DNA of 49,262 bases from an uncultured Coriobacteriaceae bacterium (GTDB lineage Bacteria > Actinomycetota > Coriobacteriia > Coriobacteriales > Coriobacteriaceae), in contig CALUFC010000014.1 in assembly GCA_944319885.1 (NCBI GenBank), forward strand, positions 1 to 49,262. The letters are read 5' to 3'. Positions 17,652 through 30,880 of this stretch are shown here, piece after piece; the stretch's first letter is position 1, and each line of letters begins with the position of its first letter. Below the pieces are notes generated by a model. It saw only the letters and a program-made list of their open reading frames with translations, searched no databases and was not told the DNA's origin. Made by a program: the position numbers and the translations under genes.

Positions 17652-17970
17652 GATGCATCCTTTCTCAGTACCACGCCGCAGAACTGCCCCAGGTATCGAA
17701 CCCGCGCACGCCCGAGCGGCATTGCGAACATCCTACCACGGTGTGCAGGGAGCTCGCGCAGCATCTCGCATTTGGGCATACGTCTACCAACAGATAGCTA
17801 CCGTATTCCCGATAGACCTGAAAGAGTGCTGCTGCTCAGTGGTATCCTCGAGATGAGTTATGGCTCAGCCAAAGCGCCGCAACCTTGTGCGGCGTGTCGC
17901 CGTTCGCACAACCGGACGGCATACCTACCGGATGCGGCCGCATGGCCGCCTGTTCGATTGGAAGTGCAGC
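17652..17970. promoter_or_regulatory. Divergent intergenic region HAD gene / glgB
   Basis: This should contain the promoter of the glycogen cluster. The best candidate is TGGTATCCT at 17840-17848, an extended -10 (TG-N-TATCCT), with no convincing -35. Starting there would give an ~115-base leader to the GTG at 17971, or a nearly leaderless message from the ATG at 17860. I see no other structure. Confidence 0.35.
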
Positions 17971-20259
17971 GTGGCTACGTCAACTAACGCGCCCAAGAAG
18001 GCAACGAGACGCACGAAGCCGGCAGCGAAGAAGACGGCGGATCCCTGCCTCATCATCACCGAAGACGATCTGTACATGTTCGCCAACGGCACCTGGCAGC
18101 GCAGCTGGGAGAAGCTCGGCGCGCACAAGGACGTGCAAGACGGGGTCGAAGGCTGGCATTTCGCGGTATGGGCCCCCAAAGTGGCAAGCGTGCACGTGGT
18201 GGGAGATTTCAACGGCTGGGACCCCAAAGCCAACAAGCTGTTCCAAATCAAGCAAAGCGGCGTATGGCAGGGATTCGTCCCCGGTCTCGCCGAGGGCGAT
18301 CTCTATAAGTATGTCATCGAGACCGATGACGGCAGACTCCTCTACAAGGCGGACCCCTATGGGTTCTATGCCGAGAAAAACCCCGGCACCGCCTCGCGCC
18401 TCATGGATATCACCGGCTATACCTGGACCGATGGAGTCTGGATGCGCAAGCGCGGCCGTGCCGACCTCATGGCACAACCGCTCAACATCTACGAGGTTCA
18501 TCTGGGATCGTGGAAGCGCCACGGTAACGAGCCGCAGGGTGAGCCGCGGGAAGACGGCACCTACCCCGGTCCGGGCGATCCGTTCCCCGCGCAGCGCGGT
18601 GTCATGTACAGCTACGACGACCTGTCGACCGAGCTCGTAGACTACGTGAAGGACATGGGCTACTCCCATATCGAGATCATGCCGCTCATGGAGCATCCCT
18701 TCGACGGCTCCTGGGGCTATCAGCCCACCGGCTACTATGCCGCCACCTCGCGCTACGGCGAGCCTAAGCAGCTCATGCACTTCATCGAGTGCTGCCATAA
18801 GGCGGGCATCGGCGTCATCCTCGACTGGGTGCCGGGCGGCTTCTGCGCCAACGACGAGGGACTCGCCACCTTCAACGGCCACATGCTCTACGAGCGCGAG
18901 ATCCATCCCAACTGGGGCACGCATAAGTTCGACTTCGGTCGCGGCGAGGTGCGCAGCTTCCTCGTGTCGAACGCTTTGTTCTGGATCGAGATGTTCCATG
19001 CAGACGGCATCCGCATGGACGGCGTCTCGAGCATGCTGTACCTGAACTTCGGCGTCGATGATCCCGGGCAGAAGAAGTTCAACAAGTACGGCACCGAGGA
19101 GGATCTTGACGCCTCGGCATTCATCCGCCAGGTCAACTGCGCGGTAGGTCGCGAATTCCCTGACGTCATGATGATCGCCGAGGAGTCCACCGCCTGGCCG
19201 CTCGTGACCTATCCACCCGAGGACGGTGGCCTGGGTTTCCACTTCAAGTGGGACATGGGCTGGATGAACGACACTCTGCACTACATGCAGACCGACTTCC
19301 CCTGGCGCCCCGGTGCGCACCGGCTCCTCACCTTCTCGATGATGTATGCCTTCAACGAGAACTTCGTGCTGCCGCTCTCCCACGACGAAGTCGTGAACGG
19401 CAAATGCTCGCTCATGGGCCGCATGCCCGGCGATCAGTGGCGTCAGTTCGCCGGCCTCCGCACGCTCATGATGTACCAGATGGCCCATTCCGGCGCACAG
19501 CTGAACTTCATGGGCAACGAGATCGCGCCCTTCATCGAATGGCGCTATTACGAGTCGCTCGAATGGTTCCTAGCAGATGACTTCGAGGACCATCGCCATC
19601 ACCGCGACTTCGTGAAGGCCTTGAACCACCTTTATCTCGACCAGCCCGCCTTCTGGCAGAAGGCCTATACCGAGGACGGCTTCGACTGGATCGACGCCGA
19701 CAACAACCAGCAGTCGATCATCTCGTTCGCGCGGCACGGCAAGAAGGCCTCGGACGACCTCGCCATCCTCATCAACTTCGACCCCGCGAGCTACGAGACC
19801 TTCCGCATGGGCGTCCCGCGCGAGGGCGACTGGCAGGTCATCTTCGACACCGATCGCCCCGAGTTCGGCGGCTCCGGCTATAAGCTCGACGAGCTCGACG
19901 GCGCGGTTTGCTCGAGCCAGCCGTATCCGTGGAACGGCTGCGATAACTCCATCCAGCTGCCCGTTCCGGGTCTTGCCGGCATCGTCTTGAAGCGCATCGG
20001 CAAGAGCTCGTACGTACCGCCGAAGCCCAAGAAGAAGCCCGCGGCGAAGCGCAGCACGCGCAAGACGTCCGCTGCATCCGCCAAGACGTCCACCGCATCT
20101 GCCGCGTCGAAGACCACGAAAACCGCTGCCGCAACGGCATCGGCAAAAAAGACGGCGACCTCCCGCGCAAAAGCGACCGCGAAATCCACCGCACCAGCAA
20201 AGACATCAGCGAAGAAGAGCCCGACGACCGCCCAGGCAAAATCTACACAATCTGCTTGA
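17971..20259 (+). CDS. glgB: 1,4-alpha-glucan branching enzyme with histone-like C-terminal tail
   Basis: Creates alpha-1,6 branches in glycogen. A CBM48 domain (GVEGWHFAVWAPKVASVHVV, DFNGWDP) precedes a GH13 barrel. Catalytic residues are Asp350 in GIRMDGVSSML, Glu404 in MIAEESTAWP, and the Asp in LPLSHDEVVNGKCSL. The core ends with a beta domain near SYVPPKPKKK. It is followed by an ~80-residue Lys/Ala/Ser/Thr tail (20017-20256) resembling histone H1 repeats, and the N-terminus is also Lys-rich (NAPKKATRRTKPAAKK). I prefer the GTG start at 17971 with GGAAG six bases upstream; an ATG at 17860 would add 37 basic residues and has a poorer ribosome site. It is the first gene of the glycogen cluster; glgP follows. 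Confidence 0.93.
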   Translation: MATSTNAPKKATRRTKPAAKKTADPCLIITEDDLYMFANGTWQRSWEKLGAHKDVQDGVEGWHFAVWAPKVASVHVVGDFNGWDPKANKLFQIKQSGVWQGFVPGLAEGDLYKYVIETDDGRLLYKADPYGFYAEKNPGTASRLMDITGYTWTDGVWMRKRGRADLMAQPLNIYEVHLGSWKRHGNEPQGEPREDGTYPGPGDPFPAQRGVMYSYDDLSTELVDYVKDMGYSHIEIMPLMEHPFDGSWGYQPTGYYAATSRYGEPKQLMHFIECCHKAGIGVILDWVPGGFCANDEGLATFNGHMLYEREIHPNWGTHKFDFGRGEVRSFLVSNALFWIEMFHADGIRMDGVSSMLYLNFGVDDPGQKKFNKYGTEEDLDASAFIRQVNCAVGREFPDVMMIAEESTAWPLVTYPPEDGGLGFHFKWDMGWMNDTLHYMQTDFPWRPGAHRLLTFSMMYAFNENFVLPLSHDEVVNGKCSLMGRMPGDQWRQFAGLRTLMMYQMAHSGAQLNFMGNEIAPFIEWRYYESLEWFLADDFEDHRHHRDFVKALNHLYLDQPAFWQKAYTEDGFDWIDADNNQQSIISFARHGKKASDDLAILINFDPASYETFRMGVPREGDWQVIFDTDRPEFGGSGYKLDELDGAVCSSQPYPWNGCDNSIQLPVPGLAGIVLKRIGKSSYVPPKPKKKPAAKRSTRKTSAASAKTSTASAASKTTKTAAATASAKKTATSRAKATAKSTAPAKTSAKKSPTTAQAKSTQSA

Positions 20260-20325
20260 GACGCGTAAAATAGAGAAGTGTTGACCTGCACCCTATCCGG
20301 GCTAAAACCCGACGGAAAGGAACCC

Positions 20326-22752
20326 ATGAGACAGATCTTCCACGACAAATATGACTTCATCACCCAGTACCGGGCGATGGTTCGCGCCAACACCGGCAAG
20401 GAGTTCGAGGCCTGCGGCTCGCACGACCGCTTCTATGCCCTGGCCGAGCTCATTGCCACGCGTGCGCGCCGCATCGCGAGCGAGAACGAGCTCGAGTTCG
20501 AGCGCACGGGCAAAAAGCGCGTGTACTACTTCTCGCTCGAGTTCCTCATTGGCCGCTTGCTCGACAACTACCTGCTGAACTTCGGTATCCGCGACATGGT
20601 CGAGGAAGCGCTCGAGGAGATGGGCACCACCCTCGAGGAGCTCGAGGTCCGCGAGCCCGATGCCGCACTTGGCAACGGCGGCCTGGGCCGTCTGGCCGCG
20701 TGCTTCCTAGCTTCCGCCGCGCATGAGAACATTGCCTTCTACGGCAACGGCATGCGCTATGAGTACGGCCTCTTCAAGCAGGAGATCGTCAACGGCCGTC
20801 AGGTCGAGGTTGCCGATAACTGGCTCAAGCACGGCTATCCATGGGAGTCGCGTCGCCCCGAGAGCGCGGTCGAGATTGTCTTCGGCGGCAAGAGCGTGGG
20901 CTACGAGAAGGACGGCCGCACCATGTACCGCACCGAGGGCGGCCAGAAGATCCTTGCGGTCCCCTATGACATTCCCGTGGTTGCCTACGGCGGCGGCCTC
21001 GTGAACAAGCTGCGCGTCTGGAAGGCCGAGCCCAACGAGGACCTCTTCGACCTCGACGCCTTCAACAGCGGTAACTATGCCGAGGCGAACGCCGGTCGTG
21101 CCGAGGCCGAAGCCATCTCGACCATCCTCTACCCCGCCGACGGCGGCGAGCATGGCAAGATCTTGCGCCTGAAGCAGGAGTACCTGTTCGTGGCAGCCGG
21201 CATCAACTCCATCCTCAACACGTTCCGCAACGAGCATGGCACCGAGTGGGAGAAACTGCCGCAGTACGTGGCCATTCACACCAACGACACCCATCCGGCC
21301 ATGTGCGGCCCCGAGCTCATGCGCGTTCTCATGGACGAAGAAGGCCTGGAATGGGACGAGGCTTGGGAGATTGTCACCAAGACCGTCTCGTTCACCAACC
21401 ACACCGTCCTGCCCGAGGCGCTCGAGAAGTGGCCCATCACCACGTTCAAGCCGCTCCTTCCCCGCCTCTACCAGATCATCGAGGAGATCGCCCGCCGCTT
21501 CCGCGAGTCCTTCCCCACTGATAACCCCGAGTGGCGCGAGATGTTCCAGAAGACCGCCATCCTGTGGGACGGCGAGGTCCGCATGGCGAACCTCTCGATC
21601 GTGTGCAGCCACTCGGTGAACGGCGTGGCCGAGCTCCACACCAAGATCTTGAAAGAGCAGGTCTTCAAGGAGTTCTACGAGCTCACGCCTGCGAAGTTCA
21701 ACAACAAGACCAACGGCGTGACGCATCGTCGCTTCCTCGCCGAGGCCAACCCCAGCTACGCCAAGCTCATCACCGACACCATTGGCAAGGGCTGGCTTGA
21801 CGACGCCTTCGAGCTCAAAAAGCTCGAGGCCCACGTGGACGACGAGAAGTTCCTGCGCGCCATGGCAGCCTCCAAGCGCGAGAACAAGGTGCGCCTGGCC
21901 AAGTACATCGAAGAGGTCTCCGGCGTCACCGTCGACCCCGATTCGGTCTTCGACGTGCAGGTGAAGCGCTTCCACGCCTACAAGCGCCAGCTGCTCAACA
22001 TCTTCAAGGTGATGGACGTCTACAACCGCCTCATCTCCGATTCCACCTTCACCGTGCGCCCGACGACCTTCATCTTCTCGGGCAAGGCGGCGCAGAGCTA
22101 CTACTTCGCCAAGGAGGTCATCCGCCTCATCAACTCGGTGGCCGATGTGGTGAACAACGACAAGCGCGTGAACGAGCTCATCAAGGTCGCGTTCATCCCC
22201 AACTTCCGCGTTTCGAACGCCCAGCTCATCTACTCCGCCGCCGAGATCTCCGAGCAGATCTCCACGGCCGGCCAGGAGGCGTCGGGCACCTCGAACATGA
22301 AGCTCATGATGAACGGCGCAATCACGCTCGGCACGCTCGACGGCGCGAACATCGAGATCGCCGACCTTGCTGGTCGTGACAACGTCAAGATCTTCGGCCT
22401 CACCGAGCCCGAGGTCGTCGCCCTGCAGCAGAGCGGCCACTACTTCTCGTGGGACGAGTACAACGCCGATCGCGACCGCCTGGGCCGCTGCGTGGACGAG
22501 CTCACCGACTCCACCTTCTCCGCCCTCTCCGGCACGTTCGACTCCATCCGCCGCGAGCTCATGGACAACAACGACCACGACCTTGTGCTCAAGGACTTCC
22601 ATTCCTATGTGAAAGCATGGGAAGAGCTTGTCGAGAGCTACGACGACACGCTCGCGTGGAACCGTATGGCCCTGTACAACACGGCCAATTCGGGACACTT
22701 CTCAAGCGACCGCACCATTCGCGAGTACCGCGACGAGATCTGGGGAGCGTGA
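20326..22752 (+). CDS. glgP: Glycogen/maltodextrin phosphorylase
   Basis: Releases glucose-1-phosphate from glycogen chain ends using pyridoxal phosphate. The 808-residue protein shows YYFSLEFLIGRLLDNYL, EPDAALGNGGLGRLAACFL, AIHTNDTHPAMCGPELMR and VQVKRFHAYKRQLLN. The PLP-Lys region is QEASGTSNMKLMMNGAITLG, followed by TLDGANIEI. The ATG at 20326 has GGAAAGGAA upstream. It lies 66 bases after glgB. Co-location with synthesis genes implies that storage and mobilisation are transcribed together or from nearby promoters. Glycogen versus maltodextrin preference is not readable. Confidence 0.96.
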   Translation: MRQIFHDKYDFITQYRAMVRANTGKEFEACGSHDRFYALAELIATRARRIASENELEFERTGKKRVYYFSLEFLIGRLLDNYLLNFGIRDMVEEALEEMGTTLEELEVREPDAALGNGGLGRLAACFLASAAHENIAFYGNGMRYEYGLFKQEIVNGRQVEVADNWLKHGYPWESRRPESAVEIVFGGKSVGYEKDGRTMYRTEGGQKILAVPYDIPVVAYGGGLVNKLRVWKAEPNEDLFDLDAFNSGNYAEANAGRAEAEAISTILYPADGGEHGKILRLKQEYLFVAAGINSILNTFRNEHGTEWEKLPQYVAIHTNDTHPAMCGPELMRVLMDEEGLEWDEAWEIVTKTVSFTNHTVLPEALEKWPITTFKPLLPRLYQIIEEIARRFRESFPTDNPEWREMFQKTAILWDGEVRMANLSIVCSHSVNGVAELHTKILKEQVFKEFYELTPAKFNNKTNGVTHRRFLAEANPSYAKLITDTIGKGWLDDAFELKKLEAHVDDEKFLRAMAASKRENKVRLAKYIEEVSGVTVDPDSVFDVQVKRFHAYKRQLLNIFKVMDVYNRLISDSTFTVRPTTFIFSGKAAQSYYFAKEVIRLINSVADVVNNDKRVNELIKVAFIPNFRVSNAQLIYSAAEISEQISTAGQEASGTSNMKLMMNGAITLGTLDGANIEIADLAGRDNVKIFGLTEPEVVALQQSGHYFSWDEYNADRDRLGRCVDELTDSTFSALSGTFDSIRRELMDNNDHDLVLKDFHSYVKAWEELVESYDDTLAWNRMALYNTANSGHFSSDRTIREYRDEIWGA

Positions 22753-22864
22753 TCGATACCGGGTAGAGAGACATAGGGGGCATCGCCGGAGCGCACCTGC
22801 CATGCGCATCCGCTCGATAGCAAAACACAGGTATGTTTGGCACGGGTTTTGAAGGAGAACACCG

Positions 22865-24010
22865 ATGAGTAAGAAAGAATGCATCGCAATGCTCCTCGCC
22901 GGAGGACAAGGCAGCAGGCTGGGGGCGCTCACATCGAAGATCGCCAAGCCGGCCGTCTCCTTTGGCGGGAAGTACAGGATCATCGACTTCACGCTGTCGA
23001 ACTGCGCGAATTCGGGTATCGACACGGTGGGCGTACTCACGCAGTACCGCCCCTACCGTCTCCATGCCTACCTTGGTTCCGGCGCTGCATGGGACCTCGA
23101 CGAGCTGGGCGGCGGCGTTTCGATCCTGCCTCCGTACGCGACGCAGGACGGCGGCGCCTGGTACGCCGGCACGGCAGACGCCGTGACCCAAAACCTCGAC
23201 TACATCAAGTCGCATGACCCCAAGTACGTGCTCATTCTTTCCGGCGACGCCCTCTATCGCATGGACTATCGCGCCATGCTCGCCACGCACGTCGATAACA
23301 ACGCCGATCTCACCGTCGCGGTCATGCCCGTGCCCTGGGAGGATGCGAGCCGCTTCGGCATCCTCACCGCCGACGAGGATCAGCGCATCCTGAAGTTCAC
23401 CGAGAAGCCCGAGAAGCCGGATTCGAATCTCGCCTCCATGGGCATCTACATCTTCACCGCCGACTTCCTCATCAAGGCGCTGGAGGAGGACGCCCTCGAC
23501 CAGCGTTCCAGCCACGACTTCGGCGGCGACATCATCCCCAAGGCCCTCGCCGACGGCAAGCGCCTGTTCGTGCATGAGTACCACGGCTTCTGGAAAGACG
23601 TGGGCACCATCGCGAGCTATCACGAAACCTCGATGGACCTGCTCGGCGCCAACCCCTTGTTCGACCTGTACGACAACGAGACGCCCATCATGTCCAACGA
23701 CACGACGCGCCCGCCGCACTACATCGGGCCCGATGGCCGCGTCGATGACTGCCTGATCTCCAACGGCTGCAAGATCATGGGCACCGCACGCCACTCCATC
23801 CTCTCCACCGACGCGGTGGTCGAGGAGCGCGCCATCGTCGAGGACTCCGTCCTTTTGCCGGGCGCTGTCGTTAAGAGCGGCGCACATGTGAGCCGCGCCA
23901 TCTTGGGCGAGAACGCCGTCGTCGAGGAGGGCGTCAAACTCGGAAGCGTCGACAGCACGAAGGACACCGCCGTCGTTGGAAACGACGTCGTCATCGGGAA
24001 GGGGGAATGA
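22865..24010 (+). CDS. glgC: Glucose-1-phosphate adenylyltransferase (catalytic subunit)
   Basis: Makes ADP-glucose from glucose-1-phosphate and ATP, the committed step of glycogen synthesis. It has the nucleotide-binding loop [22 protein letters not shown] and [15 protein letters not shown]. Also present are the [13 protein letters not shown] region, the [11 protein letters not shown] metal site, and a C-terminal left-handed beta-helix from about residue 285. The length (381) is that of the Bacillota-type enzyme. GAAGGAG precedes the ATG. glgD starts 4 bases after its stop, so the two subunits are co-translated, as in the heteromeric GlgC/GlgD enzymes described in bacilli. Confidence 0.96.
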
Positions 24011-24014
24011 ACCG

Positions 24015-25121
24015 ATGATCAACCGCAAGGCCATCGGCTACATCACTGCTAACTATTCCGGCAGCACCCCGAGCAAGCTGCTCGAGGATCGTCCGCTCGC
24101 ATCCGTGCCGTTCATCGGACGCTATCGTCTCATCGATTTCCCGCTGTCCAACATGACCAACGCGGGCATCAAGACCGTCGGCCTCGTCATGCCGGGCAAC
24201 TACCGCTCGATCATCGACCACGTGGGACACGGTAAGGACTGGATGCTCGACCGCAAGAAGGGCGGCCTGTTCCTGCTGCCGGGCAACCCTTACGGCACCA
24301 CGAAGCGCGGCATGCGCTTCCTGCTGCGCGACATCATCTCCAACAAGTCGCTGTTCCAGCGCTCCGATAAGCCCTATGTGGTGATGATGGGCTCCAACAT
24401 CATCTTCAACATGGACCTCAACGCCATCATCGACGCCCATGAGACCTCGGGTGCCGGCATCACGATGATCTACGTGAAGGCCGAGCGCGCGCATAGCGAC
24501 ATCAACGCGCTCAACATCGGCGATCGTGGCCGCGTCCAGTCCATCAAGGTGGGCTGCGAGTACGGCGACAACAAGTTCCTCGATTGCTTCATCATCAACC
24601 GCGAGCTCTTGCTCGAGATCATCGAGAGCTACAAGAGCGCCGACTACCTCGATCTCTTCGAGGCCATCGCGGGCGACTTCGATCGCATCGATGTGTGCAG
24701 CTACGAGTTCAAGGGGCTTGCGGTGGGTATCTTCAACGAGGAGACCTACTACCATCGCAGCATGGAGATGCTCGATCCCGCCACGAACGACCAGCTCTTC
24801 ATGAAGGATCGTCCTATTCGCACCAAGGCGCACGACGCGCCCCCGGCGAAGTACTCCTCGGGCAGCAATGCCACCAACTCCCTCATCTCGGCTGGCTGCC
24901 AGATCGAGGGCACGGTGCGCGGCTCGATCCTGTCGCGCGGCGTCACCGTTGCCAGCGGTGCGAGCGTCACGAACAGCATCATCATGCAGGGCGTGAAGAT
25001 CGAGACCGGCGCGCGCGTCGAGAACGCCATCGTCGACAAGAACAACGTTATCCCTGCCAACACCGAGCTGCGCGGAACGCCCGACTCGATCCTGGTCATC
25101 GGGAAGGCTCCCATCGAGTAA
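24015..25121 (+). CDS. glgD: GlgD, non-catalytic/regulatory subunit of ADP-glucose pyrophosphorylase
   Basis: A GlgC paralogue that keeps the overall nucleotidyltransferase plus beta-helix fold but lacks the GGxGxRL nucleotide loop. The N-terminus is MINRKAIGYITANYSGSTPS where GlgC has LAGGQGSRL. It retains FIGRYRLIDFPLSNMTNAGI and GNPYGTTKRGMRFLLRDI. The metal-site region is altered to MMGSNIIFNMDLN. It is therefore expected to modulate GlgC in a heterotetramer rather than catalyse by itself. GGGGGAA gives the ribosome site. Tight linkage to glgC supports the pairing. Confidence 0.93.
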   Translation: MINRKAIGYITANYSGSTPSKLLEDRPLASVPFIGRYRLIDFPLSNMTNAGIKTVGLVMPGNYRSIIDHVGHGKDWMLDRKKGGLFLLPGNPYGTTKRGMRFLLRDIISNKSLFQRSDKPYVVMMGSNIIFNMDLNAIIDAHETSGAGITMIYVKAERAHSDINALNIGDRGRVQSIKVGCEYGDNKFLDCFIINRELLLEIIESYKSADYLDLFEAIAGDFDRIDVCSYEFKGLAVGIFNEETYYHRSMEMLDPATNDQLFMKDRPIRTKAHDAPPAKYSSGSNATNSLISAGCQIEGTVRGSILSRGVTVASGASVTNSIIMQGVKIETGARVENAIVDKNNVIPANTELRGTPDSILVIGKAPIE

Positions 25122-25215: not shown

Positions 25216-25246
25216 TCGAACATCTATCGTTCAGGGAGAGATGTAC

Positions 25247-27376
25247 ATGTCAAAGAAACTCCAGATTGCGTTCGCCTCGGCCGAGGCGGCACCCTTCGTG
25301 AAAACCGGTGGTTTGGGCGATGTTGCGGGCGAGCTTCCGCGCGCGCTCAAAAAGGCGGGTGCCGACGTCGTGGTGCTCGTGCCGAAGTACTCCACCATTC
25401 CGGCTGAGTACAAAAATCAGATGGAGCACGTGGGCGAGTTCTACGTGAGCCTGGGATGGCGCAACGAGTACTGCGGCCTCGAGCGCCTCATGGTCGACGG
25501 CGTCCCGTATTACTTCCTCGACAACGAGCATTACTTCGACCGCAGCTATCCGTATGGCTTCTTCGATGACGGCGAGCGCTTCGCGTTCTTCTCCAAGGCC
25601 GTCACCGAGTGTCTTCAGTACCTGCCCGGCGACTTCCAGTGCGACGTCCTGCACTGCAACGACTGGCACACCGCCATGGCGCCCGTGTTCCTGCGCGAGT
25701 TCTATCAGGGGCTGCCGCTCTATGAGCGCGTGAAGACCGTCTTCACCATCCACAACATCGCGTTCCAGGGTCAGTTCTCCGACAAGATGCTCAACGACGT
25801 GCTGGGCCTCGCCCACATCCCCGCTGCCGCCGGCCAGCTGCGCTGCGACGCGAGCTCCATCAACTTCATGCAGGGTGCGCTGCGCTACAGCGACGCCATC
25901 ACCACGGTGAGCCCCACCTACGCCTGCGAGATCAAGTCGTCCGATTTCGGCGAGGGTCTCGACTGGGTGCTGCGCCAGCGCTCCGATGTTCTCTCCGGCA
26001 TCCTGAACGGCTGCGACCCCGCGCTCAACGACCCCGAGACTGACACCAAGATCGCCGCGAACTACGGCGTGGGCAACATGGCCGGCAAGGCCGCCTGCAA
26101 GCGCGCCCTGCAGGAAGAGCTCGGCCTCGAGGTGCGCGACGATCGCCCGCTCATGGTCATGGTCACGCGTCTCACCCGCCAAAAGGGCCTCGACCTGGTG
26201 ACCTATTCGCTTGACCGCATCCTCTCCGGCGGCGTGCAGGTTGCCGTTCTGGGCACCGGCGACCGCGCCTACGAGGATGCCATGCATTACTTCGAGAACA
26301 AGTATCGCGGCACCATGGCGGCCCGCATCACCTTCGACTCCGCTCTGTCCCGCCGCATGTACGCCGGTGCCGACATGTTCCTCATGCCGTCGCTCTTCGA
26401 GCCCTGCGGCCTCTCGCAGATCATCGCGATGCGCTACGGCACGCTTCCCATCGTGCGCGAGACCGGCGGTCTGCGCGACACCGTGGTTCCCTACAACTAT
26501 GTCACCGGCGAGGGTACCGGCTTCTCGTTCGCCAACTTCAACGGTGATGAGATGGGCGACGCCGTCTTCCGCGGCGCACGGCTGTTCTGGGACGACCACG
26601 AGGCATGGAACAAGCTCGTCGAGCAGGCCATGAAGGCCGATTTCAGCTGGACGCGCTCCGCAGGCGAGTACATCGACCTTTACCTGCGCCTCCATCCCGA
26701 CACCGAGGTCCAGCCCGAGCCGGAGCCCGCTCCCGAGCCGAAGGCCGAGCCCGAGGTGAAGCCCGAAGCCAAGACCGAGGCCAAGCCCGAACCGAAGGCT
26801 GAACCCGTTGCCAAGGCAGAGCCCGAGGTGAAGCCCGAGCCGAAGCCGGAGCCCAAGCCCGAGCCGAAGCCCGCTGAGAAGCCGACGGAGGCACCGAAGG
26901 CTGCTGCAAAGCCCGCAGCCAAGAAGGCTCCTGCCAAGAAGGCTGCGACCACGAAGACTGTCGCCGCCAAGGCGCCTTCTGCGAAAACCGCTGCCGCGAA
27001 GGCTGCGACTACCAAGAGCGCTGCCGCCAAGACCACCGCGGCAAAGCCGGCTGCAACCAAGACGACTGCGAAGACCACGGCGAAGCCGGCGACCGCTAAG
27101 GCGGCCGCGCCTAAGGCAACCGCGCCTAAGGCTGCGGCAACGAAGACCACCGCGACCAAGACCGCGGCAAAGAAGCCTGCAGCAAAGACCGCGACCGCCG
27201 CGAAGCCGGCGGCAAAGACCACTGCCAAGACCACGGCAAAGGCTGCTGCCACCACAACGGCGACGACCACGGCTGCCAAGGCAAAAACAGCCGCTAAGCC
27301 TGCCGCCAAGGCCGCTCCGGCAAAGCCTGCCACCAAGGCAACGCGCAAGCCGTCTTCGCGCAAGAGCAACGCCTAA
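25247..27376 (+). CDS. glgA: Glycogen synthase (ADP-glucose) with ~220-residue charged, histone-like tail
   Basis: Elongates alpha-1,4 glucan using ADP-glucose. The GT5 core covers about residues 1-485: SAEAAPFVKTGGLGDVAGEL (the KTGGL ADP-glucose site), LHCNDWHTAMAPVF, FTIHNIAFQG, TRLTRQKGLD, and SLFEPCGLSQIIAMRYGT, followed by ETGGLRDTV. A normal GlgA ends here at ~480 residues. This protein continues (26707-27373) with a Pro-Glu-Lys repeat segment (PEPKPEPKPEPKP) and then a long Lys/Ala/Thr segment (PAAKKAPAKKA style). I chose the ATG at 25247 because AGGGAG lies 6-8 bases upstream; the ATG at 25241 is too close. It follows a 13-bp hairpin and ends at a strong terminator. Confidence 0.95.
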   Translation: MSKKLQIAFASAEAAPFVKTGGLGDVAGELPRALKKAGADVVVLVPKYSTIPAEYKNQMEHVGEFYVSLGWRNEYCGLERLMVDGVPYYFLDNEHYFDRSYPYGFFDDGERFAFFSKAVTECLQYLPGDFQCDVLHCNDWHTAMAPVFLREFYQGLPLYERVKTVFTIHNIAFQGQFSDKMLNDVLGLAHIPAAAGQLRCDASSINFMQGALRYSDAITTVSPTYACEIKSSDFGEGLDWVLRQRSDVLSGILNGCDPALNDPETDTKIAANYGVGNMAGKAACKRALQEELGLEVRDDRPLMVMVTRLTRQKGLDLVTYSLDRILSGGVQVAVLGTGDRAYEDAMHYFENKYRGTMAARITFDSALSRRMYAGADMFLMPSLFEPCGLSQIIAMRYGTLPIVRETGGLRDTVVPYNYVTGEGTGFSFANFNGDEMGDAVFRGARLFWDDHEAWNKLVEQAMKADFSWTRSAGEYIDLYLRLHPDTEVQPEPEPAPEPKAEPEVKPEAKTEAKPEPKAEPVAKAEPEVKPEPKPEPKPEPKPAEKPTEAPKAAAKPAAKKAPAKKAATTKTVAAKAPSAKTAAAKAATTKSAAAKTTAAKPAATKTTAKTTAKPATAKAAAPKATAPKAAATKTTATKTAAKKPAAKTATAAKPAAKTTAKTTAKAAATTTATTTAAKAKTAAKPAAKAAPAKPATKATRKPSSRKSNA

Positions 27377-27529: not shown

Positions 27530-27574
27530 TGTTGATTGCTGTCGAGACACATCGTCATCATAGAGGGAACAACT

Positions 27575-30500
27575 ATGAGATTGATTCATAACAGCAGGCG
27601 GTCCTGCTTCCGCGCGCCGTACGGCGCCGTCGAGACGGGCACCACCGTCACGCTCTCCGTGCGCATGGAGGATGCGCCGGCCGCGTGCACGCTCACGCTG
27701 CGCACGTGGGTCGACGAAGAGGGCGAGCGCCTGCATGAGATGCATCCGGGAACAGATGGCCTGTTCAGCGCTACGATAGACTGCGTACGTCCCGCCATCA
27801 TTTGGTACAGCTTCCATGCAAGCTGGGAGGAAACCGTCGACGGCGAGACCGTAAGCCGCGCGCTTCACCTTGGTGCCCCCGAGGGCCATACCGGCGGCGA
27901 GGGCGTCATGTACGATTACGCCGAGGTCCCATCATTTCAGATCACCGTCTACGAGCACCGCGCAACGCGTCCCTCGTGGTATGAGAACGGTATGGTCTAC
28001 CAGATCTTCCCTGACCGCTACCGTCGCGACGCGGCATGGCGCGAGCGCGCTGAGCGCGTGGTAGCCGAGCCGCGCGCCGGCATTGGCAAGCGTATCGTCG
28101 AAGACTGGAACGAGCCTCCCGTATACGACCGTGCGGAGGACATGTCGATCAAGACCTGGGACTTCTATGGCGGCTCGCTCAAGGGCATCACCGGTGACCT
28201 CGACCGGCTCGCCGAACTCGGCATCACCGCCATCTACCTCAATCCCATCTTCGAAGCTGCGAGCAACCACCGCTATGACACGGGCGATTACATGAAGATC
28301 GACCCCATGCTCGGTACCGAGGACGATTTCCGCGAGCTCTGCCGTGAAGCCGAGCAGCGCGGGATCTCCATCATCCTCGACGGCGTGTTCAACCACACCG
28401 GCGACGACTCGCTCTACTTCAACCGCTACGGCAACTACCCCGGTGAGGGCGCATGGGAGCACCCCGATTCGCCGTGGCGCGATGCGTTCCGGTTCCATGA
28501 GGACGGCACCTACGACTGCTGGTGGGGCATCACCAACATGCCCGCCCTGAACTCGGAGTCGCCGCGTGTACGCGAGCTCTTGCTGGGCGAGGACGGCGTC
28601 ATCCGTCATTGGACGCGCGCCGGCGCCCGCGGCTGGCGCCTCGATGTGGCCGACGAGCTTACCGACGACCTCATCGAGCAGATCAAGGCAACGCTCATAG
28701 ACGAGCGCCCCGATGGCCTGCTGCTGGGCGAGGTCTGGGAGGACGCGTCGAACAAGATCAGCTATAGCAAGCTTCGTCGCTATTTGCTGGGCAGCGAGCT
28801 CGACTCGGCGATGAACTATCCGTTCCGCGACATGGTCATCGGTTTTCTCATGGGCACGATGTCGGCCGCCGATGCCGCCGAGGTCATTGAGTCGCTCAGC
28901 GAGAACTACCCGCCCGAAGCGCTCGCCTGCTGCCTCAATCTGCTGGGAAGCCACGACCGGCCCCGCATTGCGTCGCTGCTTGGTGGCGGCCCCGATGAGT
29001 CGAAGCTTCCCGAGGAAGAGCGCGGCCGGTGGCGTCTCTCGCCCGAGGCCATGGGTCTTGCAAAGGGCCGCTTCTGGCTTGCCAGCCTCATGCAGATGAC
29101 GTTCCCGGGCGTGCCTTCCATCTACTACGGCGATGAGTACTGCTTGGAGGGCCTCTCCGATCCAGGCAACCGCCGCACCCTGCCGCTTGAGGAGGATATC
29201 CGCGACCGCGATATGCTCACCATCGTGAAGAACGCCGCCGCGGTGCGCCGCGCGCTCCCCTTCATGATCAACGGCACCATCCAGGCGCAGGCGCTCGGCA
29301 AGCACGTGCTTGCCTATACGCGGCGTGGTGAGAACGGCGAGGCTGCAACGGTCATCATCAACCGCAGCAACACCGAGGGCGCCTGCGTGTGCATTCCCTG
29401 CCTTGGCGAGGCGGCCACCGACATCGTCTCGGGCAACGAGCTCCCGGTGCGCGACGACGGTACCGTCGAGGTGCAGCTCTGGCCCTTTGGCTCGGCGGTC
29501 ATCTACTTCCATGCGCTCGACCGCCTGCAAAAGCCGCTCGAGCGCGGTGCCGGCGTCGTATGCCACATCACCTCGGTTCCCAACGGCGACAAGCCGGGCA
29601 CCTTAGGGGAGCCGTCCAAGCGCTTCATCGACCACCTCGCTGCCATGGGCATGCGCTACTGGCAGGTCCTTCCGGTGAACCCCACCGATATGTACGGCTC
29701 GCCCTACTCGGGTCCGTCTGCATTCGCGGGCAACATCGCGCTCTTGCCACAATCCGAGGAGGAGCTGCGCGCCGCCTATGCGGCATGGGTTGCCGAGGGT
29801 GGCCCCGCGCAAGACGACGGCTACCGCATCTTCGTGCGCGAGCAGCGCGACTGGCTTGAGCCCTACTGCGCTTTCATGGCGATCAAAAAGCTTGAAGACG
29901 GCGTCTCGCGCCACGAATGGCCCGAGGAGTTCGCCACCTATCGCCGCGAGCTGCTCAACGACCCCCGCCTCGCCAAGGAGGCGGCCGTCCAGGCGTACCT
30001 ACAGTATCGCTTCGAGCTCGCCTGGCAAGATGTCGCGGCATATGCCAACTACCGCAACATCTCGATCATCGGCGACATCCCCATGTACGTCTCCGATGAC
30101 TCCTCCGATGCATGGAGCTCGCCCGAGCTCTTCAACCTCGACCGCGACGGCAGACCTACCGAAATCGCCGGTGCGCCGCCCGATGGCTTCGCGCCCGAGG
30201 GCCAGGTGTGGGGCAATCCCACGTTCCGTTGGGACCGCATGCGCAAAACCGGGTACGCGTGGTGGCTGGGACGCCTCCGCCGTGTGTGCTCCCTCTACGA
30301 CCGCGTGCGCCTCGATCACTTCCTGGGCTTCCACAACTACTTCAGCATTCCGGCAGGCCACCCCGGATCCGACGGTCGCTGGCTTCCCGGTCCGGGCAAG
30401 GAACTCTTTGAGGCGGCGTATCGCGAGATGGGGCCGCTCCCCTTCATCGCCGAGGATCTGGGCGTACTCACCCCCGGCGTGCGCACCCTGCTCGCCTCCT

Positions 30501-30880
30501 GCGGCTTCCTCGGTATGGATGTGCTCGAATTCTCGGACTACGACGTGCGCTGCGGCCTGCATCCCCATGAGGGCAAGATCTTCTACACCTCTACGCACGA
30601 TACCTCAACACTGGCCGGTTTCTGCGAGCGCTCGTTTGTGGAGCCCGGTGATGTGCGTGGTGCGCGCGAGCTTGCCGCAAAGCTGGCACGCGATGCGCTC
30701 GAGAGCCCTGCCGAGCTCGTCATGATGCCGCTGCAGGACATCTTGGGCCTCAACGACGATGCACGCATGAACGTACCGGGCGTGGCCGAGGGCAACTGGG
30801 CATGGCAGGCCCGCGAGGAAGACATCGTTGCCGCGGAGGCTCCAGTCGCCGCGCTCATGCACGAAACCCATCGCGCCTGA
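27575..30880 (+). CDS. Fused GH13 alpha-glucosidase/neopullulanase-type and GH77 4-alpha-glucanotransferase
   Basis: A 1101-residue two-enzyme fusion for breaking down and recycling glucan chains. The N-terminal beta domain (about 1-125) and GH13 barrel (about 130-640) have NGMVYQIFPDRYRR, ILDGVFNHTGDDS, nucleophile Asp357 in GWRLDVADEL, acid Glu386 in LLLGEVWED, and SHDRPR. The GH77 (MalQ-type) part (about 655-1101) opens GVVCHITSVPN, then LPVNPTDMYGSPYSGPSAF. It has nucleophile Asp914 in RLDHFLGFHNYF, acid Glu960 in FIAEDLGVLTPGV, and STHDTSTLAGF. Both active sites look intact. It probably removes and transfers limit-dextrin branches left by GlgP, replacing separate GlgX and MalQ. GAGGGA precedes the ATG. 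Confidence 0.93.
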   Translation: MRLIHNSRRSCFRAPYGAVETGTTVTLSVRMEDAPAACTLTLRTWVDEEGERLHEMHPGTDGLFSATIDCVRPAIIWYSFHASWEETVDGETVSRALHLGAPEGHTGGEGVMYDYAEVPSFQITVYEHRATRPSWYENGMVYQIFPDRYRRDAAWRERAERVVAEPRAGIGKRIVEDWNEPPVYDRAEDMSIKTWDFYGGSLKGITGDLDRLAELGITAIYLNPIFEAASNHRYDTGDYMKIDPMLGTEDDFRELCREAEQRGISIILDGVFNHTGDDSLYFNRYGNYPGEGAWEHPDSPWRDAFRFHEDGTYDCWWGITNMPALNSESPRVRELLLGEDGVIRHWTRAGARGWRLDVADELTDDLIEQIKATLIDERPDGLLLGEVWEDASNKISYSKLRRYLLGSELDSAMNYPFRDMVIGFLMGTMSAADAAEVIESLSENYPPEALACCLNLLGSHDRPRIASLLGGGPDESKLPEEERGRWRLSPEAMGLAKGRFWLASLMQMTFPGVPSIYYGDEYCLEGLSDPGNRRTLPLEEDIRDRDMLTIVKNAAAVRRALPFMINGTIQAQALGKHVLAYTRRGENGEAATVIINRSNTEGACVCIPCLGEAATDIVSGNELPVRDDGTVEVQLWPFGSAVIYFHALDRLQKPLERGAGVVCHITSVPNGDKPGTLGEPSKRFIDHLAAMGMRYWQVLPVNPTDMYGSPYSGPSAFAGNIALLPQSEEELRAAYAAWVAEGGPAQDDGYRIFVREQRDWLEPYCAFMAIKKLEDGVSRHEWPEEFATYRRELLNDPRLAKEAAVQAYLQYRFELAWQDVAAYANYRNISIIGDIPMYVSDDSSDAWSSPELFNLDRDGRPTEIAGAPPDGFAPEGQVWGNPTFRWDRMRKTGYAWWLGRLRRVCSLYDRVRLDHFLGFHNYFSIPAGHPGSDGRWLPGPGKELFEAAYREMGPLPFIAEDLGVLTPGVRTLLASCGFLGMDVLEFSDYDVRCGLHPHEGKIFYTSTHDTSTLAGFCERSFVEPGDVRGARELAAKLARDALESPAELVMMPLQDILGLNDDARMNVPGVAEGNWAWQAREEDIVAAEAPVAALMHETHRA

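Follow-up and report, generated by a model that had tools for sequence, protein, structure and literature searches.

A histone H1-like basic tail on the glycogen branching enzyme of Coriobacteriales and its possible role as a tether to the nucleoid

Introduction

The position of glycogen within bacterial cells and its sharing at division are hardly known. In Escherichia coli, glycogen is described as collecting at the old poles; when csrA is mutated, the heavy glycogen load goes with chromosome-less old-pole cells, presumably by spatial exclusion (available text of PMC4836754). Such exclusion would naturally be remedied by a tail that anchors glycogen enzymes to the DNA.

The window analyzed here, a stretch of 49,262 nucleotides from an uncultured Coriobacteriaceae bacterium, lies within contig C14 of a 2.02-Mb genome in 29 contigs. 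It carries a glycogen gene cluster in the order glgB, glgP, glgC, glgD, glgA, and a GH13-GH77 fusion gene, all on the + strand. A preliminary description of this DNA remarked that the branching enzyme (GlgB) ends in a lysine- and alanine-rich stretch like that of GlgA, and proposed that the two enzymes share a scaffold or co-assemble through their tails. The locus raises the questions of what a polycationic tail does on a glycogen enzyme, and whether the two tails work as a pair.

Results

The branching enzyme and its C-terminal tail

The GlgB reading frame occupies positions 17860-20259 (+), with its stop codon at 20257-20259. Judged from the sequence, GTG 17971 is a likelier start than ATG 17860, and the gene would then span 17971-20259; a GGAAG lies six bases upstream of this GTG, and the frame is alignable from it onward in five genomes of the window's genus. 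The first 22 codons (17971-18036, +) encode a Lys/Arg-rich N-terminal extension of about 21 residues, ATSTNAPKKATRRTKPAAKKT, which is probably disordered, with a model pLDDT of about 33 for residues 1-20. The lysine-rich N-terminus noted in the preliminary description is basic in the window's genus and not consistently so in the neighboring genera shown, and a conserved basic N-terminus was accordingly rejected.

The catalytic part (18037-20013, +), comprising CBM48, GH13, and C-terminal beta domains, is supported by profile matches and conserved residues. GlgB scores above the NCBIfam equivalog cut-offs of both NF008967 (798.7 bits, cut-off 577) and TIGR01515 (715.9 bits, cut-off 463.95). Residues D328, E382/E383, H449, and D450, which we take to include the GH13 catalytic triad, are invariant in 12 sequences of relatives. 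Pfam searches with GlgB returned only CBM48, alpha-amylase, and GlgB_N, with no Phasin or PhaM domain. The closest named relative in the collection searched is an uncultured Collinsella (86% GlgB identity), and Collinsella sp. BG-O-102 shares 74%.

Following the C-terminal beta domain is a tail of 81 residues (20014-20256, +) that begins VPPKPKKKPAAKRSTRKTSAASAKTSTASAASK, carries a net charge of +20, and contains no aspartate or glutamate. This bears out the earlier report of about 80 residues resembling the end of GlgA; the span given there, 20017-20256, is the same tail minus its first valine. The tail consists of 21% lysine, 28% alanine, 20% threonine, and 16% serine, and answers to the definition of a histone H1-like tail used here, a long C-terminal run of lysine with alanine, proline, threonine, or serine that is net positive and has few acidic or aromatic residues. 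Lys/Arg spacings of 1, 4, and 5 exceed the geometric expectation, a pattern that repeats of the AAKP and PAKKA types would produce. Intrinsic disorder is predicted for the tail: in an AlphaFold2 model built from a shallow alignment of 13 sequences, in which confidence is also poor in parts of the GlgB core, residues 691-762 have pLDDT values of 24-37 and no secondary structure.

Only one other enzyme of the cluster carries such a tail

The GlgA frame (25241-27376, +) begins with a catalytic part (25241-26695) whose Pfam matches are glycosyltransferase domains. Beyond this core lie 226 residues, first a Glu/Pro/Lys-rich repeat spacer (26696-26893, net charge -7) and then a Lys/Ala/Thr-rich, histone H1-like basic tail (26894-27373, net charge +38). 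In many relatives the GlgA tail ends in a common basic motif, e.g., SVSAARK followed by TTRKR. A search of the genome of the window with the Pfam HC2 profile gave a single weak match, to the GlgA tail, which scores 13.2 bits where the cut-off is 40; the GlgB tail gave none and is thus not filed as HC2.

The remaining products of the cluster stop at their domains in the window: glycogen phosphorylase GlgP (20326-22752, +, with the start at ATG 20326 judged from the sequence), GlgC (22865-24010, +, profile match), GlgD (24015-25121, +, with the start at ATG 24015 likewise judged), and a GH13-GH77 fusion of the debranching enzyme/4-alpha-glucanotransferase type (27536-30880, +, profile matches). 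This fusion scores below the cut-off of the NCBIfam GlgX/MalQ fusion model. That these four lack tails, as first described, is confirmed in the window, and for the first three also in the loci of families f1 and f2 (see below), where C-terminal extensions of at least 20 residues occur in 0 of 79 GlgPs, 1 of 79 GlgCs, and 1 of 81 GlgDs, none of them both lysine-rich and basic.

Since the bias corrections of profile scoring mask such tails in the genome of the window, we wrote a composition scan in which the last 50 residues must hold at least nine lysines, a net charge of at least +8, and at least 72% K, R, A, T, P, S, or G. It was applied to 529,262 bases of the same genome, made up of the window and 24 further 20-kb stretches, and among the 3133 open reading frames (ORFs) of at least 80 residues in all frames only GlgB and GlgA passed. 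The refuting observation named in the preliminary description, tails turning up on arbitrary proteins of these genomes as composition drift would give, was therefore not made. A looser and different criterion applied to 20 of the 20-kb stretches flagged one extra ORF, presumably ribosomal protein L31. Outside the sample, TopA of this genome (G000:C2:100737-101960, L247) has a similar Lys/Ala/Thr/Ser C-terminal tail, so the tails of GlgA and GlgB are rare rather than unique in the genome. Across 83 glg loci (881 kb), 99 ORFs passed the last-50 criterion, 32 of them GlgA and 67 GlgB, with no other protein; as these loci hold mainly glg genes, the sample from the genome itself is the fairer control.

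Distribution in Coriobacteriales and beyond

In a class-wide draw of 197 genomes, GlgB was found in 85 and GlgA in 84. The family codes used here, f1, f2, and f3, probably correspond to Coriobacteriaceae, Atopobiaceae, and Eggerthellaceae. In four genomes (G189, G190, G191, and G011) the best GlgB belongs to a different type or family and has no lysine-rich tail, leaving 81 main-type GlgBs in f1 and f2. All 81 have a net-positive C-terminal extension (+2 to +37, median +20), which is at least 20 residues long in 77. A strict whole-tail H1-like criterion is satisfied by 73 of the 81 (36/41 in f1 and 37/40 in f2), or 73 of 85 when the other four are counted. Tail lengths vary widely, from 10 to 266 residues; the four shortest tails (G185, G068, G082, and G181) have 10-17 residues and net charges of +4 to +6. 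A second, distant GlgB type of the same order has a basic tail in none of 16 loci, three fragments (G114 twice and G193:C122) having been left out.

The GlgA tail is distributed differently. In f1, 39 of 41 GlgAs carry extensions of 101-335 residues, and both members of genus g5 have none. In f2, 39 of 40 GlgAs extend only 5-12 residues beyond the catalytic core and one reaches 20 residues, and all 40 GlgBs there have a basic extension. The GlgB tail is thus present where GlgA is tail-less (f2 and g5) and is independent of a tailed GlgA. Mapped on the GlgB tree, the GlgA tail requires two changes, one at the base of a 39-genome clade and one in G092. The GlgB tail is the wider and probably the older trait.

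Outside the class, the strict tail occurs in 0 of 36 GlgBs from other Actinomycetota. Among 78 named loci it is found in 10 of 78 GlgBs and 0 of 25 GlgAs, a difference that is not significant (p=0.11). The bearers include Fournierella massiliensis, Eubacterium aggregans, Paenibacillus illinoisensis, Phaeodactylibacter xiamenensis, a Bacteroidetes bin, and an Anaerolineae bin. By the last-50 criterion, these loci yield 4 of 78 GlgBs, one GlgA, and one other ORF (GlgB versus the rest, p=0.0005, with a denominator of 980 roughly called proteins). The GlgA (L168:6525-8366) is from an uncultured Clostridia bacterium whose GlgB at the same locus has no tail, and its H1-like tail apparently arose independently of those in Coriobacteriales. 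The other ORF (L152:4706-5788), from an uncultured Clostridiales bacterium in which it lies some 4 kb upstream of glgB, encodes 360 residues with an AAKKA-type end and has no Pfam match.

A wider GlgB tree of 135 rows was built with FastTree, with 19 genomes chosen to represent Coriobacteriales; GlgBs below 400 bits were left out (below 550 bits for the chosen genomes, by which G189 was kept). On this tree the tailed rows belong to Bacillota, Bacteroidota, Chloroflexota, and Coriobacteriales, and the trait shows 12 changes by parsimony, which cannot separate gain from loss. The Coriobacteriales GlgBs nest inside those of Bacillota, close to a Eubacteriaceae bin (L148) whose GlgB ends in a short basic stretch. 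Together with the adjoining glgC and glgD in the region 17971-25121 of the window, this nesting suggests that the glg operon came from Firmicutes.

Positive charge appears to be kept by selection

In 15 close species of group g3, variable columns of the GlgB tail comprise 5 of 21 lysine columns versus 30 of 35 alanine, threonine, or serine columns (p=7e-6). Changes from lysine to glutamate and from threonine to alanine need the same A-to-G substitution at codon position 1; in the GlgB tail, none of the 21 lysine columns shows the former, and the latter is seen in 4 of 4 columns. The GlgA tail behaves likewise in these species, with 11 of 52 lysine columns variable versus 95 of 126 for alanine, threonine, and serine (p=2.5e-11), and with lysine-to-glutamate changes in 2 of 52 columns versus threonine-to-alanine in 25 of 45. 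Acidic positions in the GlgA spacer and tail are more variable than the lysines. The GlgB core of the same species shows no such contrast (3/21 versus 7/101, p=0.37). Across g11, with 12 species, the direction is the same and the difference is not significant (12/17 lysine versus 20/21 alanine, threonine, or serine columns, p=0.07). The test assumes independence between columns, and low-complexity sequence of this kind aligns imperfectly. Taken at face value, these alignments indicate that, in one species cluster, selection keeps the positive charge while the filler residues, and with them the sequence, drift.

Little support for a pairing of the two tails

What stands of the earlier reading is that GlgA and GlgB alone among the pathway enzymes examined are tailed, and that selection maintains the charge of both in the 15-species cluster. 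Three findings weaken the proposal that the enzymes share a scaffold or co-assemble through paired tails. First, co-occurrence fails in f2 (39 of 40 GlgAs tail-less) and in g5 (2 of 2). Second, tail sizes do not co-vary: when the 39 genomes that carry both are compared by phylogenetic contrasts, no correlation is seen for length (r=0.15, p=0.35), lysine count (0.13, p=0.44), or net charge (-0.04, p=0.81). Without correction for kinship, the lengths have a rank correlation of 0.44 (p=0.005). Third, there is no sign of DNA exchange. The glgA and glgB tails share a 16-base string beyond what codon shuffles produce (0/100 as long), and their local alignment score falls within the shuffles (38/500 as high). 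Pairing tail DNA of the same genome versus different genomes gave a significant excess of similarity within one genome, which vanishes under a null that preserves both proteins and each one's own codons; this null leaves p<0.05 in 2 of 38 genomes, the number that chance would give. No recombination is thus seen between the tails, and this candidate was rejected.

Discussion

Our tentative answer, to which we give slightly less than even credence, is that the GlgB tail is a disordered polycation of the histone H1, AlgP, PhaF, and HupB type that serves as an electrostatic tether to chromosomal DNA and places glycogen at the nucleoid. The catalytic and CBM48 parts would hold the glycogen particle and the tail would bind chromosomal DNA non-specifically, such that nascent glycogen might stay dispersed within the region of the nucleoid and be divided between the daughters rather than pushed to the poles. 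In the clade of the window, GlgA would later have gained a second tail, on an acidic spacer, adding contacts. The predicted disorder of the tail, the precedents for DNA binding and granule placement by similar tails, and the polar glycogen of E. coli are together what leads us to a nucleoid tie of glycogen enzymes. The breadth of the GlgB tail in f1 and f2, its confinement to the main GlgB type and GlgA in the glg loci, the selection on its charge, the similar tail on the DNA enzyme TopA, the Lys/Arg spacings, and the recurrence of GlgB tails in other phyla also count in its favor. The tail, its distribution, the selection on charge, and the predicted disorder are results of this analysis; DNA as the partner, the nucleoid as the location, and partition as the outcome are what we infer. 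Several considerations temper this reading. Most GlgBs elsewhere are tail-less, so glycogen can do without the tail, and polycations bind any polyanion, including RNA, polyphosphate (for which the genome has a kinase), and membranes, which counts against a DNA-specific reading. The lysine contrast in g11 falls short of significance, and the structural model is of poor confidence in parts of the core too. The shortest tails (10-17 residues) would hardly suffice to tether.

Literature searches on lysine-rich tails of glycogen enzymes, on glycogen granules and the nucleoid, and on Collinsella glycogen found no report among open-licence papers, a limit that makes this weak evidence of novelty. The available text of a review of prokaryotic alpha-glucan enzymes (PMC11046441) does not contain the terms "lysine-rich", "nucleoid", or "Collinsella". 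A lack of HU was considered as a reason for the H1-like tails and was not adopted. The HU profile PF00216 matched a single genome among the 197 drawn from the class, and it did not match that of the window, which may reflect either a miss of the search or a true absence; Coriobacteriia are stated to have HU, of clade HU_acti_0, in the accessible portion of a 2017 paper (PMC5683647).

The closest surviving form of the co-assembly idea is that basic tails bind a polyanion (RNA, polyphosphate, or GlgA's own Glu-rich spacer) and thereby concentrate the enzymes of glycogen synthesis in a condensate or scaffold, with no role for the chromosome. The genome encodes polyphosphate kinase, the GlgA of the window does have a Glu-rich segment, and polyphosphate with polycations is described as forming condensates (in the text available of PMC9239181). 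We nonetheless consider this unlikely: f2 keeps the GlgB tail although 39 of 40 of its GlgAs have neither an acidic nor a basic extension, the sizes of the two tails do not co-vary, the acidic positions of GlgA are less conserved than its lysines, and GlgC, GlgD, and GlgP have no tail by which to be recruited.

Less probable still is that the tail retains the enzyme on its substrate, either by holding glycogen through phosphate groups or by clamping as the TopA repeats do on DNA. Glycogen is nearly neutral, CBM48 already binds it, and GlgP also works on the polymer yet is tail-less. In favor of retention, the tailed enzymes are those that touch the polymer, and the tail-dependent processivity of TopA offers a precedent (PMC7398561, in part).

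A general aid to solubility, by which charge prevents aggregation of crowded, particle-bound enzymes with no specific partner, seems improbable. Such a role would suit a soluble tail of low complexity whose charge is under selection, but the charge is positive in every case, where a negative one would serve equally, and the second-type GlgBs do without any tail. We give very little weight to composition drift, in which GC-rich codon repeats would expand neutrally at C-termini that tolerate them. Lengths do vary widely and alanine, threonine, and serine change freely, as drift would have it, but lysine is conserved relative to a matched class of mutation, all 81 main-type GlgBs are net positive, and neither the 16 second-type GlgBs nor the other ORFs sampled have the tail; for the 15-species cluster, where the matched-substitution test rejects it, drift is strongly disfavored. 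Finally, that released GlgB moonlights at the surface and binds anionic host or bacterial polymers, as mycobacterial HBHA binds heparin by its lysine-rich end, can nearly be set aside despite that precedent and the gut habitat given in the record titles of relatives, since no signal peptide is apparent by eye in the GlgB frame, similar GlgB tails occur in organisms of other habitats, and two enzymes of one cytosolic pathway are tailed.

Returning to the nucleoid tether, a broader claim would be that the glycogen of Coriobacteriales is a nucleoid-tethered store, laid on and inherited with the chromosome, and that the same device was gained independently in other phyla. We regard this as possible and hold it with more reserve. 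If true, H1-like tethers would be a general solution for storage granules of PHA, PHB, polyphosphate, and glycogen, and the principle would extend from accessory proteins to the synthesizing enzymes themselves.

Comparison with known systems shows where the analogy holds. In Pseudomonas putida, PhaF has an AAKP-type basic C-terminus that binds DNA, and it places PHA granules (as described in part of PMC5658603), while PhaM of Ralstonia eutropha, cited here as a bearer of granule placement and not for the make-up of its tail, places PHB granules (PMC3556143, partial text). Like these proteins, GlgB combines a part that holds a storage polymer with a storage-granule setting, and with PhaF it also shares the basic C-terminus. 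Unlike PhaF and PhaM, which are separate granule proteins, the tail here sits on biosynthetic enzymes, the polymer is glycogen, and DNA binding is a deduction; as GlgB has no Phasin or PhaM domain, the proposed likeness to a phasin-type tether is one of working only. AlgP of Pseudomonas aeruginosa likewise has an H1-like C-terminal domain in a storage-granule setting; this KPAA-type domain is required for the spacing of polyphosphate granules, and AlgP fragments with such a tail bind DNA (sections available of PMC9239181). Unlike GlgB, AlgP is not described in those sections as an enzyme of polymer synthesis, its N-terminal part is unrelated, and polyphosphate is itself an anion. The lysine repeats of actinobacterial TopA, which are reported to stabilize its complex with DNA and to underlie its processivity (PMC7398561, in part), and the PAKKA tail of HupB are of the same kind in composition and position as the tail of GlgB, and the TopA of this genome has one; unlike GlgB, both TopA and HupB act on DNA. 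Ordinary bacterial GlgBs share the same catalytic part, and the strict tail is lacking in all 36 from other Actinomycetota and in 68 of the 78 named loci outside the class.
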